Positions 3,052 to 27,650 of a DNA stretch of 64,000 nt are shown here, piece by piece (within the stretch, counting starts at the first letter, position 1; each line of letters opens with the position of its first letter). Under the pieces are notes generated by a model. It did not search any database. It had not been told where the DNA came from and saw only the letters and a program-made list of their open reading frames with translations. The DNA comes from Chloroflexota bacterium. GTDB taxonomy: Bacteria; Chloroflexota; Dehalococcoidia; JACQUA01. The translations under genes were made by a program, and so were the position numbers. Location: the NCBI GenBank assembly GCA_016210565.1, contig JACQUA010000074.1, forward strand, positions 1 through 64,000, in the 5' to 3' direction.

Positions 3052-3226
3052 CCATGAAGGACCTTTGAACACGATCTGACTCTTGAAGAACTGGAGAGGC
3101 GCAGAAGTGAACCGTGAGATGGCGATCGCCGGCACGTGGCTTGACGCCGGCTCCCACTTGGATTTCATCGCCGGAACTGCGGATCTGGCCGTAGAAAGCC
3201 TCCTGCCCCCGGTGGAGAAGCAATGA
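3052..3226 (+). pseudogene. Degenerate vapBC remnant (VapB C-terminus fused to VapC C-terminus by internal deletion)
   Basis: Encodes 'LTLEELERRRSEP*' (intact VapB at 3728: 'LTLEELEKLRSEP*') then 'LDFIAGTADLAVESLLPPVEKQ*' (intact VapC: 'FDYIAEITGLAVESLVPLVKK'). Confidence 0.75.
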
Positions 3227-3438
3227 AGCACGCTTGTACGACTTTTGGAGATTGCTCCGAAAATGTCATTGCGAGGAGTCCCGATTCATCGGGGCGACGA
3301 AGCAATCCCCCAGTCGGCTGATCATCCGGGAGATTGCTTCGCTTCGCTCGCATTGATAGTCTATCCCTCGTGGTGCGCCATCGGCGCATGGGTGATTGTT
3401 TCGGATTTCGAGTTTAGGATTTAGGATTTCGCCCGGAT

Positions 3439-3610
3439 ATGGCTGATAACCTTTCTTTCCTTCTGGACAAGAGCGTGGCCCACCTGGACAGGGGCCTGGT
3501 GATGCAGCGGCAGGGAAACCTGCCGGAGGCCAGGTACAACCTGCTGAAGGCCGCGGGGTTTAGTCTCAGAGCGGCGGAACAAGCACCACCGCCCGGGAGA
3601 GAGAATGCCT
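3439..3610 (+). pseudogene. Truncated duplicate of the MIT-like N-terminus of the AAA ATPase at 4371
   Basis: 'MADNLSFLLDKSVAHLDRGLVMQRQGNLPEARYNLLKAAGFSLRAAEQ' is near-identical to 4371 'MADNLSFLLDKSVAHLDKGLEMQRQGNLPEARYNLLKAAEFLFKAAEK'; homology then stops. Confidence 0.8.
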
Positions 3611-11366: not shown

Positions 11367-12833
11367 ATGGACGGATTTGAACAGAAGCTAAAGCAAATAA
11401 CGGAGAAGCTGGATGCGGCTGCGGAGAGGCCGCGGGCGAAGACCGGGGATGAGTTACAAGGTTTGAAGGTAAGGGGGGAGATTCCAAGATTGGAAGATTC
11501 GAAGATTCCAAGATTCCCCACCACCACGCCGGATCTGCGCGTTCCGCCCCGACGCGGCCCGGTGAATTTGACCAGCGAGCTGGGGTTCCTGGATGACCTG
11601 GCAGAGGAGTGCTTTGATTTCGGGCGCACGCTGGGCAGGACGATGCGGACCTACCCGGTCTATTTGTGCCAGTCGCTGGATGACTTTTTCGGGCTGACCG
11701 TGAAGGATGTGGGGATGCCGGAAGGGGTGCGGGCGCAGGTCGTGCAGGCGAAGAAACGGGAGGCGGCGCAGCAGGCGGAGGAGACCGGAGGGGGAATCCT
11801 GGGGGTGCATTTTCCGGGGCCGGGGTGCTATTTGAACGGGTGGTTGATGGAGAGGAGAGAACGAGAAAGAGATGGAGATAGAGACGGGCACGGAGGACCG
11901 CAGGCAGGGACGCCTGCGGCACCCGCCGGGGACAGGCACGGTGGCCTGTCCTACTGGCCGGAGATTGTCGGCACGGTCATTCACGAGAAGTTCGGGCATG
12001 GCTTCATCAGCGAAATGAGCGCCTGGGGCAGGGAGCGCAGACGGCTGAATCTCGACCGGTATGACATCGCCCGGCGCTTTAACCTGAAGGCCACCGATAG
12101 CCCGGCCGAGGTCGCCATGGGCGAGAAGTACAACCTGGTATACCGCGCCTGCCGCATCTGTGAGGAGGGGTATGCGGAATGGATAGAGAACTACCTTTGG
12201 CAGAAGTGGCACCAAGGTTTCGACATCCGCCATGGATGTCGCTACGGGCTCGACGGCCTGCTTTCGGTCCTGGGCGGCTGGAAAACCGAGCCGGCCCAGG
12301 AAAAGGAGTTCGCCGACGCCCTGGCCGGGGTGTGCGCTCTGCTGCTCGGGGATGTGGAGATGAATTCGGAGGAATCACCCGCGCCTGGCAGTTCACGCAC
12401 AATCAAGGATGATAATAATGGCCCACACAGGCGGGGACGCGCTGTGCCACCCGTATTTCCTGCGCAACTGATGGAAGGCATGGGCGTGCTGGGCACCGCG
12501 GATGACCTGCTGGGCCCGGCCCTGATGTCCGCCCTGGGAAAACCCCTGCACTACGTGGCGGGCTACCTGCTGGTGGAAAAGCTGGCGCGGAACCTGGGGG
12601 CGGATTTCGTCCCCTATGCTGTGCTCATCGCCAACAACGTGACCTTCGACCTGGAGAGGACATCGATTTCCGACCTGGGCCACTTGCTGCAGCACACTCC
12701 GGAGCTGAACATCAACGCCCGGCTGTTCATGCTGGCCGAACTGAAATCGGACAGGGAAATGAACTTGCGACAAAAATGCGGCTTGATAAAAGACAATCTC
12801 GGCTTCGCCATTCCGCGATTCTTCGGTTCGTAA
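11367..12833 (+). CDS. Putative zinc metallopeptidase, HExxGH ... EExxAE (M49-like motif set)
   Basis: ORF 11337-12833; 'IVGTVIHEKFGHGFI' and downstream 'RICEEGYAEWIENYLW'; contains three in-frame interspersed-repeat segments. Confidence 0.5.
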   Translation: MDGFEQKLKQITEKLDAAAERPRAKTGDELQGLKVRGEIPRLEDSKIPRFPTTTPDLRVPPRRGPVNLTSELGFLDDLAEECFDFGRTLGRTMRTYPVYLCQSLDDFFGLTVKDVGMPEGVRAQVVQAKKREAAQQAEETGGGILGVHFPGPGCYLNGWLMERRERERDGDRDGHGGPQAGTPAAPAGDRHGGLSYWPEIVGTVIHEKFGHGFISEMSAWGRERRRLNLDRYDIARRFNLKATDSPAEVAMGEKYNLVYRACRICEEGYAEWIENYLWQKWHQGFDIRHGCRYGLDGLLSVLGGWKTEPAQEKEFADALAGVCALLLGDVEMNSEESPAPGSSRTIKDDNNGPHRRGRAVPPVFPAQLMEGMGVLGTADDLLGPALMSALGKPLHYVAGYLLVEKLARNLGADFVPYAVLIANNVTFDLERTSISDLGHLLQHTPELNINARLFMLAELKSDREMNLRQKCGLIKDNLGFAIPRFFGS

Positions 12834-13041
12834 GGTTTGTAAAGTTTATAAGGTTCATAAGGTTTGTAAGGTTAGAAAGTTGGAAGGTTGCAAGGTTGGA
12901 AGGTTGGAACCACGAATGAACACGAATGAACACGAATCGAAGGATTGAGGATTGCAGATTCCGGATTGGAGATTGGAGTTGGCTATTAGCTGAAGGCTGT
13001 TAGCTGATAGCTGATAGCTGTTAGTTCGCCCGAGGTGCGCC

Positions 13042-14940
13042 ATGAGCAATACGGTTTCAGATTCAGGCAAGAACCGGGGGACCGCTCCCGGCGACATCAT
13101 CCTGGCCGAGCAGTTCAATATGCCGGAACTGCCGGCGGGCGGCCTTTTCTGGCTGTTCAAGGCTCTGCACGTCTACCCGGGCCACCAGGGACTGGTCACC
13201 AAAGACGGCCATATCATCAGGCCCCCGGTAACGGGGCCGGACAAAGGCATCCGCAAGGTACTGGTCGCCTGGCGGTTTCTCCGCCAGGGCCGCGGCGCCG
13301 TGCGCGTCTTCACCAACCCGGTGAACGCCGAAGTGGAGTTGCCTTCGCTGAACACCGGGGACTGGAAAGCCGTGGCGGTCAAGCTACCCCTGAAGCTGCA
13401 AGTCGCCGACCCGGTGCTGTTCTACAACAACCTGCTGCGGGGGCGCCCCGGGGAGTATACGCTGTCCGCGTTCGAGGCCGACATAGCGCCGGCGGCGGGC
13501 AAACCGGTGCAGAGGTGGGTAAACGGGTACGCGGCGCAATCTCTGCTTGAAGACGACGGTAACATCGGCCAGGGACTCGCGGACGGGCTAAAACTCGATC
13601 CGGCGGGCGAAATGAAGAACATCCTGGCCGCCCGCGGCCTGGCGCTCGTTGAATGCTCTTCCCTGGCCTTCGCTCTCCCGGAAGAGCCGGGAGAACCGCC
13701 GCCGTCGCCTGAGGAACTGGCAGAAAAGGCGCGGACACAGAGCCTGGAGGAGCTTCTGAGGCCGTGGGAAAAAGCGGCCACGGCCGGCGATATCAAAGAG
13801 GTAAAGGCCGCCTTCGCCAGGTCGTCCGAAGAGGGACAGAAGGCCTGGGGGGCGCTGGTGGACCGGCTGGAGCAACAGAGGGAGAGGGCGCTGGAAAAGC
13901 GGGCGCGGCAGCTTGAACGGGTGGAGGGGGTGGCGGCGGCGGCGAAGCCGTCGCCTGCCTTCCCCGTCAGGCAGCTCAGCAAGCTCGGCATCTATCTGGC
14001 CATCGTGCTCATCCTCGGCGCCGCCTCGGCCTGGCTCACCATCTTCAAGTCCACCCACTACCAGACCCCGGCGGGGGCGGGGGCTGCCCTGGTCATGGTC
14101 TTTGGATTCATGCTCCTGATCCAGGCCGTAGTCGATCACGCCATGGCCCGGGCCCTGCCCCAGGTTGTCGAGCCGATGTCGAAATTCATGCGGAGCCTCA
14201 TGCCGTGGCGGGCAGGCAGTCGAACAGTCGAGCAGTCGAGCAGTCAAGCAGTCAAGCAGTCAAGTGGCCAAGCAGGCGAACAGCCAGCAGTTGGCAGCCG
14301 GCAGCCGGTAGTGGGGAGTGGAGAGTCGGCAGTCGGGGGGCAGGGGTCAGCAGTCAGCGGACTGCAGCCAGCCCCCACCCCAGCGCCTGAGGCTGTCCCC
14401 ATCCCACCCGCACCCCTCGCGGCCGCACCGCGGTCGCAATTCCTTGCCGACTGGCTGAAGAATGACGCTATGAAGGCCGACAAGAAGGTCCGCGGCCAGG
14501 TCTCCCGGGAGCTGACCCGGGCAGTCAGCAGCATCAACGACGCCCGGCTGAGCAAACCGTGGTCGCAGGACAGAGAAGGGGCGGTGGCCCTGAAGAAGAT
14601 CGCCGACGATGCCAACACCTTCCGGACCAGCATCGAAATAGCCCCCGCCCACGACTACACGGCCGTCAAGGAATGGAAAGGCCACGAACGGGAGCTGGCC
14701 GCCCGTCTGATAGCCTTCCTGGAGGAACTGCTCCGGCAGGGGGAGGCATTCGCCAGCGCCAGCGCCCGGCTGCAGCCGGGCGCTGACGATGCCGGCCCCC
14801 CCGGCCACCCCGGCGCCGATGGCCCCCAGCCGCGGCCACCAGCCACCGCTCCGACGCCGGAAACCCTCGCCGCCATGCTCCGCCGCATGGAAAAACACTG
14901 GGAGAAGCGCGAAGCGATTTTCAATGGAATCCTCCGATAG
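13042..14940 (+). CDS. SPFH-like / coiled-coil membrane protein
   Basis: N-terminal 'VYPGHQGLVTKDGHII...GIRKVLVAWRFLRQGRGAVRVFTNPVNAEVELP...LKLQVADPVLFYNNLL' resembles SPFH layout; coiled coil; TMs 'LGIYLAIVLILGAASAWLTIF' and 'GAALVMVFGFMLLIQAVV'. Confidence 0.5.
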   Translation: MSNTVSDSGKNRGTAPGDIILAEQFNMPELPAGGLFWLFKALHVYPGHQGLVTKDGHIIRPPVTGPDKGIRKVLVAWRFLRQGRGAVRVFTNPVNAEVELPSLNTGDWKAVAVKLPLKLQVADPVLFYNNLLRGRPGEYTLSAFEADIAPAAGKPVQRWVNGYAAQSLLEDDGNIGQGLADGLKLDPAGEMKNILAARGLALVECSSLAFALPEEPGEPPPSPEELAEKARTQSLEELLRPWEKAATAGDIKEVKAAFARSSEEGQKAWGALVDRLEQQRERALEKRARQLERVEGVAAAAKPSPAFPVRQLSKLGIYLAIVLILGAASAWLTIFKSTHYQTPAGAGAALVMVFGFMLLIQAVVDHAMARALPQVVEPMSKFMRSLMPWRAGSRTVEQSSSQAVKQSSGQAGEQPAVGSRQPVVGSGESAVGGQGSAVSGLQPAPTPAPEAVPIPPAPLAAAPRSQFLADWLKNDAMKADKKVRGQVSRELTRAVSSINDARLSKPWSQDREGAVALKKIADDANTFRTSIEIAPAHDYTAVKEWKGHERELAARLIAFLEELLRQGEAFASASARLQPGADDAGPPGHPGADGPQPRPPATAPTPETLAAMLRRMEKHWEKREAIFNGILR

Positions 14941-15220: not shown

Positions 15221-16978
15221 ATGAACTCTATGAACTCCTTTGGTCTCGAATCCCGGTTCCAGGTACTCGAACTCCTGGGCGGCGGCGGCTTTGCCGATGT
15301 TTACAAAGCCGTCCGGAAGTCGGACAGGCTCACCGTGGCCCTGAAGCTGCCCCGGCTGGCCGGGTTCCAGACGGCCCAGCACGACCTCTTTCTCAAAGAA
15401 GCCGAGAAGTGGAAGAACCTCCGCCATGCCCACATCGTCCCGCTGATCGAGTTCGGTCGGACGCCGGTACCTTACATCGCCATGGAGTACATGTCCGCCG
15501 GCTCTTTGCGGGGAAGGATTGGCAAGCTGGCCATCCCGGAAGCCCTGGCCGTCGCCGCCCAGGTGGCGGAAGGCCTCTTCTATGCGCACCGCTGCGGCCT
15601 GGTGCACCTGGACATCAAGCCGGAGAATATCCTCTTCGATGCGGAAGGCAAAGCCAGGCTGAGCGACTGGGGCCTGAGCAGAGTCATGCTGGCCAGCTCG
15701 GCGGGCAGCACGGCCAGCGCCGGGACGCTGGCCTACTCCGCGCCGGAGCAGGTGTTCCCCCCCAGGTTCGGCGAGCGGGACTGGCAGACCGACGTGTGGC
15801 AGTTCGGCGCCACCCTTTACGAAATGGTCACCGGCCGGTTGCCGTTCCAGGCGGACAACATCCTGGAGCTGGGCCAGAAAATCTGCACTGAAGAACCACT
15901 GCCCCCGCGGCAGTTCCGGCCCCACCTGGACATACCCGGCGAATTGAACGACCTGATCATGCGCTGCCTCCGCAAGGACAAGAAAGAGAGGTTCCGCGAC
16001 TTCTATCCCATCCAGGGCGCCATCGAGACCCTCCTCCGACCGCCCGCCAAGGTCGAGACTTTCTCCACACCCACAACCCAACGTCGTTCCCGCGAAGGCG
16101 GGAATCCAGTGGTCCCGCAAAAGCGCCAGCCTTCCCCCGTGCCGGCAACATCCAAAACCCGTACGGGCACGTTGCACGTGCCCCCCCAGCAAGAGGGCGA
16201 GCCTTCCCCCATACCCGCAGCCGTACCCGGCCCGGAGCCCCAGCGGAAGCGCCGGCCAGTCCTTGCCATCGTCCTGCCCTTGCTGTTTGTCGTGCTGCTT
16301 GGAGCGGGTGGATTAACATACTGGGCGGCTGCCAACAAGAAGCCTCCACCCATGATCCCGCCCACCGCCACGCCAGCCGCCGCCGGCGTTGCGCAGCGGG
16401 CTACCCCCCCAGCCCCGGCACCTACGAGCACCCCTGCACCAAAGCCGGCGACGGCCGCGCCAACGCCTCTGCCCGGCACCGAACCCAGGAAACCGGCCGC
16501 GGTGAACGAACCTCCGGTTCCGCGCCTTCCGGACGCGGTCACCACGAGACCCAGCTTCTTCAAGGGTGGCGAATTGGCGGGTGGCCATTCTGACTCTATC
16601 CCAGTTCAACTGAAGGTAGGAGAAATGCTCCAAGGGGAAATTATTGCGGTCCGCAATCAGAGTTTGAGCTGGGATATCGCTGACTTTAGCGGCCGCGTCG
16701 TTCAGTCCTTTGGGACAACGGATACCAGAGCGGGTTTCTACTACGCGCCGGAGGTTGACGGACAGCATTACATAGTGATCACCAATCCCAGGGACTGGGA
16801 GATCGGTACGCATGGTTACCAGGTGACCTATTCCACAACAGGTTCTACCGTGCCTCCCGGAGCGGGGTCAGGTCAAGGCTCCGGAGCACCGGTGATTAAG
16901 TGGGTGCTCATCATCGCGTCGGCTGGGGTTGTCTTCTTCATAATCCGACGGCTCTCTTGGGGAGCCAAACGTGGCTGA
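15221..16978 (+). CDS. Ser/Thr protein kinase with TM helices and extracytoplasmic GOLD-like domain
   Basis: 'LGGGGFADVYKAV', 'VALKLPR', 'HLDIKPENILFD', 'SDWGLSR', 'APEQ'; TM 'VLAIVLPLLFVVLLGAGGLTYWA'; 'LKVGEMLQGEIIAVRNQSLSWDIADFSGRVVQSFG'; C-terminal TM 'WVLIIASAGVVFFIIRR'. Confidence 0.87.
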   Translation: MNSMNSFGLESRFQVLELLGGGGFADVYKAVRKSDRLTVALKLPRLAGFQTAQHDLFLKEAEKWKNLRHAHIVPLIEFGRTPVPYIAMEYMSAGSLRGRIGKLAIPEALAVAAQVAEGLFYAHRCGLVHLDIKPENILFDAEGKARLSDWGLSRVMLASSAGSTASAGTLAYSAPEQVFPPRFGERDWQTDVWQFGATLYEMVTGRLPFQADNILELGQKICTEEPLPPRQFRPHLDIPGELNDLIMRCLRKDKKERFRDFYPIQGAIETLLRPPAKVETFSTPTTQRRSREGGNPVVPQKRQPSPVPATSKTRTGTLHVPPQQEGEPSPIPAAVPGPEPQRKRRPVLAIVLPLLFVVLLGAGGLTYWAAANKKPPPMIPPTATPAAAGVAQRATPPAPAPTSTPAPKPATAAPTPLPGTEPRKPAAVNEPPVPRLPDAVTTRPSFFKGGELAGGHSDSIPVQLKVGEMLQGEIIAVRNQSLSWDIADFSGRVVQSFGTTDTRAGFYYAPEVDGQHYIVITNPRDWEIGTHGYQVTYSTTGSTVPPGAGSGQGSGAPVIKWVLIIASAGVVFFIIRRLSWGAKRG

Positions 16979-22273: not shown

Positions 22274-22400
22274 AGGAATGACGAAGTCCGAATGACGAAT
22301 GACCAGACAAATGACGAATGACGAAGCCCGAATGACGAATGACGAATGACGAAGCCCGAATGACGAATCAATCAAGAAATGACGAATGACGAATCAACGG
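22270..22400. repeat. Repeat family B: short tandem-like 'aatgacgaatgacgaagcccgaatgacgaat'
   Basis: Same motif, direct or inverted, near 190-232, 22500-22556, 26455-26580, 39790-39840, 41585-41705. Confidence 0.85.
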
Positions 22401-22595
22401 TCGTGCCCGGGCAGCCTGGGCACTGCGAAGGGCGAAATAGCGGCCCACACAGGCAGGGACGCCTGTGCCACCCGCGATGAGCCACCGCCTCATTTGAACA
22501 TTCGACATTGGGAATTGATTCGTCATTCGAATTTCGTCATTCGTCATTCGGGTTCACCCTCTCCTTAGTCCTCTCCCATCGAGGGAGAGGAAACG

Positions 22596-27415: not shown

Positions 27416-27434
27416 GGGCGACCCCCGTTGACCA

Positions 27435-27650
27435 GGGAAAGACCCTTCGACTTCGCTCAGGGTGACAGTGCAGGGGAAAGACCCTTCGACTGCGCTCGGG
27501 GTGACAGTGCAGGGGAAAGACCCTTCGACTTCGCTCGGGGTGACAGTGCAGGGGAAAGACCCTTCGACTTCGCTCGGGGTGACAATGGGAAAAGACCCTT
27601 CGGCTGCGCTCAGGGTGACAGCGCCTTTGCTCAGGGTGACAGTGCAGGTC
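27435..27650. repeat. Tandem array of a 39-bp repeat (about 5 units)
   Basis: Unit 'gggaaagacccttcgacttcgctcagggtgacagtgcag' starting near 27435, 27474, 27513, 27552, 27591; 39 nt = 13 codons, so several frames stay open. Confidence 0.9.

Follow-up and report, generated by a model that had tools for sequence, protein, structure and literature searches.

Does repetitive DNA lie in frame inside the peptidase-like gene at positions 11367-12833, and if so, what kind of element is it and how could the protein have accommodated it? These questions arose in a 64,000-nucleotide stretch of a Chloroflexota contig (the window, to which coordinates refer unless a contig or locus is named), taken from a MAG with 94% completeness and 6.4% contamination. 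The original prediction, made from the letters of the window, held that three interspersed repeats, segments (i) to (iii), had invaded this gene in frame in the manner of Rickettsia palindromic elements (RPEs).

The host gene and its homologues

The open reading frame at 11367-12833 (+ strand) comprises 488 codons and a stop, and has no internal stop, so that its frame is kept through all three segments, as had been anticipated. Its codon score of 99 from a codon-based gene caller is of the coding type, and both the HEKFGHGF active-site motif and a downstream EEG are intact in the 488-residue HExxGH metallopeptidase-like product, a putative metal-dependent protease. Pfam and NCBIfam searches of the host protein returned no convincing family, a PDB search by sequence returned no match, and a PDB fold search returned none at E<=0.001. 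Ser/Thr protein-kinase genes are the genomic neighbours of this ORF, and kinase-like and zinc-ribbon genes are also found near homologues in other genomes.

Neither the 59 relatives searched nor a class sample of 392 further genomes yielded a homologue of the host gene, and the insertion tests therefore rest on phylum-level homologues: four full-length proteins (L029-L032), found in genomes G647, G992, G1002 and G1071, whose 25-33% identity to the host protein is a level at which exact insertion boundaries and the nucleotide-level empty site are not visible. Asgard proteins of ~1300 aa from Borrarchaeum and related organisms (L002-L005) carry a terminal domain with the same HEKFGHGF motif; they align with part of the host protein only and are secondary evidence.

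Repeat families represented in the gene

Each segment was compared by blastn with a 1.24-Mb sample of the same genome in which the host gene had been masked. At E<=1e-3, segment (i) gave 8 matches (best 54 bits), the first and second palindromes of segment (ii) gave 13 (best 54 bits) and 31 (best 50 bits), and segment (iii) gave 16 (best 52 bits); most of the matched copies are intergenic, and in two cases 27 of 27 bases were identical to copies elsewhere in the genome. Dinucleotide shuffles of the queries scored 34 bits or less and four control pieces of the host gene scored 28-34 bits at best, neither set yielding a match at E<=1e-3 in the same 1.24 Mb. Together, the matches and the negative shuffles and gene controls bear out the expectation that all three segments are present and belong to genome-wide repeat families. 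The purine-rich stretch at 11845-11895 was not a repeat in this sample, and an Rfam search found nothing.

The palindromes belong to family A, whose consensus, CTCACAGGC-ACGGAG-GCCTGTG-GTACCGG, is a short hairpin within the 20-40 bp range. The exact pattern ACAGGCRNGGNNGCCTGT is present in 552 copies in the whole genome, above the 100-copy mark, and its reversed control in none; the other copy statistics come from 1.24-1.43 Mb of the 6.5-Mb genome. The outer pair of the hairpin is A-T in 112 copies and G-C in 24, and is thus compensatory. Nearly all of 151 copies have a foot beginning with GT (GTAC 90, GTGG 23, GTAG 16, GTAT 8, GTGC 7), and strict GTAG-tagged hairpins number 213, against 19-30 for permuted tags. 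Although 80% of the 1.43 Mb is coding, 145 of 161 copies are intergenic and 5 lie clearly within genes.

Genes for REP-associated tyrosine transposases (RAYTs) were also identified, with the NCBIfam model REP_Tyr_transpos scoring above cut-off in L064, L062, L061, L067 and L066, and with 4er8 TnpA_REP as the PDB match. Family-A hairpins flank RAYTs in this genome (L064 and L062; contigs C406 and C40), where other RAYTs are flanked by hairpin families of their own. The same hairpin accompanies RAYT genes in two relatives: on contig C7 of G044, hairpins at 2936 and 3612 surround a RAYT at 3097-3504, and in G001 family-A hairpins adjoin RAYTs on C50 and C265. Copies of the family number 19 in G044 and 16 in G001, and most other relatives have none. 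This adjacency shows that family-A hairpins are tied to candidate RAYT transposases.

Feet that begin with GT in nearly all 151 copies, together with the RAYTs that this hairpin flanks, mark the palindromes as REP elements, probably of the GTAG type, and not as Rickettsia RPEs. The likeness to RPEs that had been proposed therefore holds for the phenomenon and not for the family, the elements here being GT-footed and RAYT-linked where RPEs carry CGTC. In R. conorii the RPEs terminate in CGTC, a class of repeat for which a dedicated transposase is apparently lacking (PMC3733652). GTAG REPs with matching RAYTs have been described inside genes of several species, where the inserts encode 20-30 aa; the same paper records degenerate tags, GTGG among them, and lists Chloroflexi as having GTAG families (PMC3733652).

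Insertions relative to homologues

Segment (ii) is a tandem pair of ~30-bp imperfect REP hairpins, in agreement with the two family-A palindromes originally described. One (11899-11924, +; GCAGGC-AGGGAC-GCCTGC, with a GTGC foot on the other strand) matches the family profile at E=8.2e-4 and has identical 27-mers elsewhere; its partner (11932-11957, +; GACAGGC-ACGGTG-GCCTGTC, with a GTAG foot on the other strand) matches at E=2.6e-5, and the GTAG-hairpin scan places its tagged hairpin at 11931-11954. The pair lies in the region between the NGW and HEK motifs (11844-11981, +), which spans 46 codons here as opposed to 28 in the homologues, a net gain of 18 aa, and it ends about 8 residues before HExxGH.

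For segment (iii) the repeat match stood, but the extent first given was too short: 12383-12451 (+) matches positions 6-71 of a 75-nt composite REP element, made up of an upstream module and a hairpin, at E=4.8e-8 (nhmmer, with a ~75-nt model built with the host gene masked). By blastn it is 85.5% identical over 69 nt to a copy on contig C58. Sequence and blastn comparison place its hairpin at 12426-12446 (+; CACAGGC-GGGGAC-GCGCTGTG); its 3' arm is longer by one base, and its foot, GTGG, is on the other strand. The likeness noted to 22439-22473 was recovered as a 94% match over 34 nt to an intergenic sister copy of family D7 (22435-22474, +; blastn). Relative to the homologues, segment (iii) adds about 30 aa (+29 to +31).

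Both (ii) and (iii) are absent from all four full-length homologues; none has the same residues at these positions (shared residues were what the original prediction had named as counting against it), and a family-A hairpin core was found at none of the homologous loci. In the blastp alignment with the G647 protein (E=3e-39), 49 of 52 gap columns fall within (ii) and (iii). This comparison shows that the two segments are true in-frame insertions relative to the homologues, and we infer that the loops encoded across them, which include the peptides GPQAGTPAAPAGDR and TIKDDNNGPHR, are present in the mature protein.

In-frame invasion of the ORF, upheld for (ii) and (iii), was not upheld for segment (i), which lies in frame within a hypervariable N-terminal linker and gives a net length gain of 0 over the homologues. 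Its membership in a repeat family was confirmed with altered coordinates, the matching part being approximately 11479-11522 (+; 54 bits by blastn, pLDDT<50) rather than 11463-11520. It is a degenerate heptamer tandem repeat of GATTNNAA-like units, interspersed and mainly intergenic, with 125 of 137 AGATT-type repeats outside called genes. Cyanobacterial STRRs are also heptamer direct repeats.

The count of three elements proved incomplete, as the GTAG-hairpin scan revealed a fourth, the GTAG-tagged hairpin GTAGCGACATCCATGGCGGATGTCG at 12221-12245 (-), from a family with 10 members in 1.43 Mb, 8 of them intergenic. By blastn alone this element is borderline (E=0.002), but a chance likeness was rejected in view of the family membership given by the scan. 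The surrounding region is nearly equal in length in the homologues, which suggests replacement rather than clear insertion. With no net gain at either site, segment (i) and the fourth element are therefore replacements or drift, not demonstrated insertions.

Predicted structure at the repeat sites

In an AlphaFold2 model computed from a five-sequence alignment (mean pLDDT 62.5), values below 50 were confined, besides the first few residues, to residues 12-68, 173-194 (with one-residue breaks), 286-290 and 329-363, and were higher elsewhere. These four stretches contain or overlap segment (i), segment (ii), the fourth element and segment (iii), respectively. The repeat-derived segments are thus modelled as what are probably disordered loops; because the alignment is shallow and low pLDDT may partly reflect columns without aligned residues, these values support disorder but do not prove it.

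Repeats in other genes

Family-A copies are found inside fmt, a CcdA/DsbD-type gene and a molybdenum hydroxylase gene. The product of fmt (L055:507-1559, +), methionyl-tRNA formyltransferase, is ~38 residues longer in its C-terminal part, where a family-A hairpin lies, with 59 residues between aligned blocks compared with 21 in a solved Fmt. The CcdA/DsbD-type membrane protein (L044:994-1917, -) contains seven tandem ~10-aa QAGTPPSQGG-like units that are in-frame family-A hairpins, and in the large subunit of molybdenum hydroxylase the stretch joining the two cofactor domains is ~6 residues longer, at a family-A copy.

On contig C172 of G000, a 1112-codon DUF1156 ORF (L122:3734-7069, -) encloses, in frame, a complete RAYT domain together with the hairpins that flank it on either side. 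DUF1156-type methylases are anti-phage-associated, and this ORF, RAYT domain included, has no stops; no other feature of the case is as unusual as this nesting of a RAYT. One could speculate that REP/RAYT elements are a recurrent source of protein loops in this lineage, entering genes in frame with sometimes several families per gene, and that in the DUF1156 methylase a whole RAYT-plus-hairpin unit was taken up, its transposase persisting as an inserted domain in a somewhat intein-like manner, an idea that we advance tentatively and think rather unlikely.

The genome is very repeat-rich. Within the window, the ORF at 13042-14940 has an in-frame linker of heptamer-like repeats (cagtcgagcagtcaag; 14224-14361), and in the kinase gene at 15221-16978 the peptide RRSREGGNPVV (16082-16120) is a translated member of the ATTCCCGCGAAGGCGGGAAT hairpin family, which also flanks the RAYT on C65. 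Further tandem or interspersed families, AATGACGA, CTTCGACTKCGCTCAGG and GGTTCATAA, are mostly intergenic (22276-22393, 27434-27624 and 12825-12890, among other sites).

Discussion

We propose, with a probability of roughly 0.86, that the host gene carries intragenic REP elements of a family with more than 550 copies, together with the hairpin at 12221-12245, from a second GTAG family, and the heptamer repeat of segment (i), and that (ii) and (iii) are in-frame loops, placed by RAYTs or by recombination, that survive as neutral. In this model, which is inferred, RAYTs would transpose single-stranded copies of the hairpin, or recombination would draw on copies already present, and nearly all hairpins that came to lie in genes would then be lost to selection. 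Of the six reading frames of the consensus hairpin, five contain no stop (a hand count), so that an insert whose length is a multiple of three (3n) can be read through when it falls in a loop. Inserts of such length, in a stop-free frame and in a surface loop, would survive as neutral peptide insertions; the host protein is probably made and folded despite them, and neither regulation nor catalysis need be invoked to account for the inserted loops.

Several repeats in one gene could instead mark a decaying pseudogene whose frame was kept by luck, particularly as REPs taken together are strongly under-represented in genes and the neighbours at 13042-14940 and 15221-16978 also hold repeat-derived linkers. 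We consider this very unlikely, given 488 stop-free codons with a codon score of 99, the intact HEKFGHGF and EEG, and the location of all repeat-derived segments in low-confidence loops, when random insertions would fall mostly outside loops and two-thirds of them out of frame. A further reading takes the segments to be ancestral low-complexity linkers that came to resemble repeats by convergence, with no mobile DNA involved. Linkers drift fast, and the unchanged length at (i) and the fourth element would suit it; for (ii) and (iii), however, it is contradicted: many intergenic copies match at the nucleotide level (27 of 27 bases twice), segment (iii) aligns with the composite element (E=4.8e-8), the shuffles and gene controls were negative, and the loops are missing from the homologues. 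We regard this reading as highly improbable.

That the palindromes are RPE-type or other elements spread by recombination, with no dedicated transposase, is highly improbable: RPEs produce the same phenotype of in-frame insertion into ORFs, and the main foot here is GTAC rather than strict GTAG, but GT begins the foot in nearly all 151 copies, CGTC is not among the listed feet, and RAYTs adjoin the hairpins in three genomes. There is equally little chance that the loops owe their retention to a function such as regulation by flexible loops beside the active site or control of expression by an RNA hairpin. Segment (ii) does end ~8 residues before HExxGH, and possible roles of REPs have been discussed (PMC3733652), yet four homologues do without the loops and the analyses revealed no conservation or role. 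We favour neutral REP insertions in a gene that is probably still working. Measured against homologues, the case adds a further bacterial genome in which REP hairpins can lengthen protein loops in frame, and it links the inserts to transposase candidates encoded in that genome. Where intragenic REPs come from, which frames they take and how they are tolerated thereby become testable, and a QAGTP-like stretch in a genome of this sort can turn out to be mobile DNA and not conserved sequence.

In-frame intragenic GTAG REPs are already known (PMC3733652), and the present host gene and the RAYT within an ORF add a new instance. Those elements, among them GTAG-20 of Opitutus terrae, whose tag is mostly GTGG, resemble the repeats described here in their 20-40 bp hairpins, high copy number and, probably, GTAG-like foot (PMC3733652). 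They are also mostly intergenic, with some copies in frame in genes, where dimers or groups encode 20-30 aa, and they have matching RAYT genes, forming 'REPtrons' (PMC3733652). They differ in that here, in a different genome, the main foot is GTAC, several repeat families including a heptamer repeat occur in one gene, and an entire RAYT gene is embedded, in frame, in a host ORF. RPEs are likewise palindromic repeats found in frame inside ORFs, but have CGTC ends and apparently no dedicated transposase (PMC3733652), as opposed to the GT-foot tags and adjoining RAYTs seen here. REPINs and BIMEs (PMC3116915, PMC2817692) share RAYT-linked hairpins, some of them paired or in tandem. Segment (i) resembles the heptamer direct repeats, such as TAACTGA in marine Beggiatoaceae (PMC4679880), that are 7-nt tandem repeats and mostly intergenic, although its own unit is degenerate, GATTNNAA-like, and read in frame in a linker.
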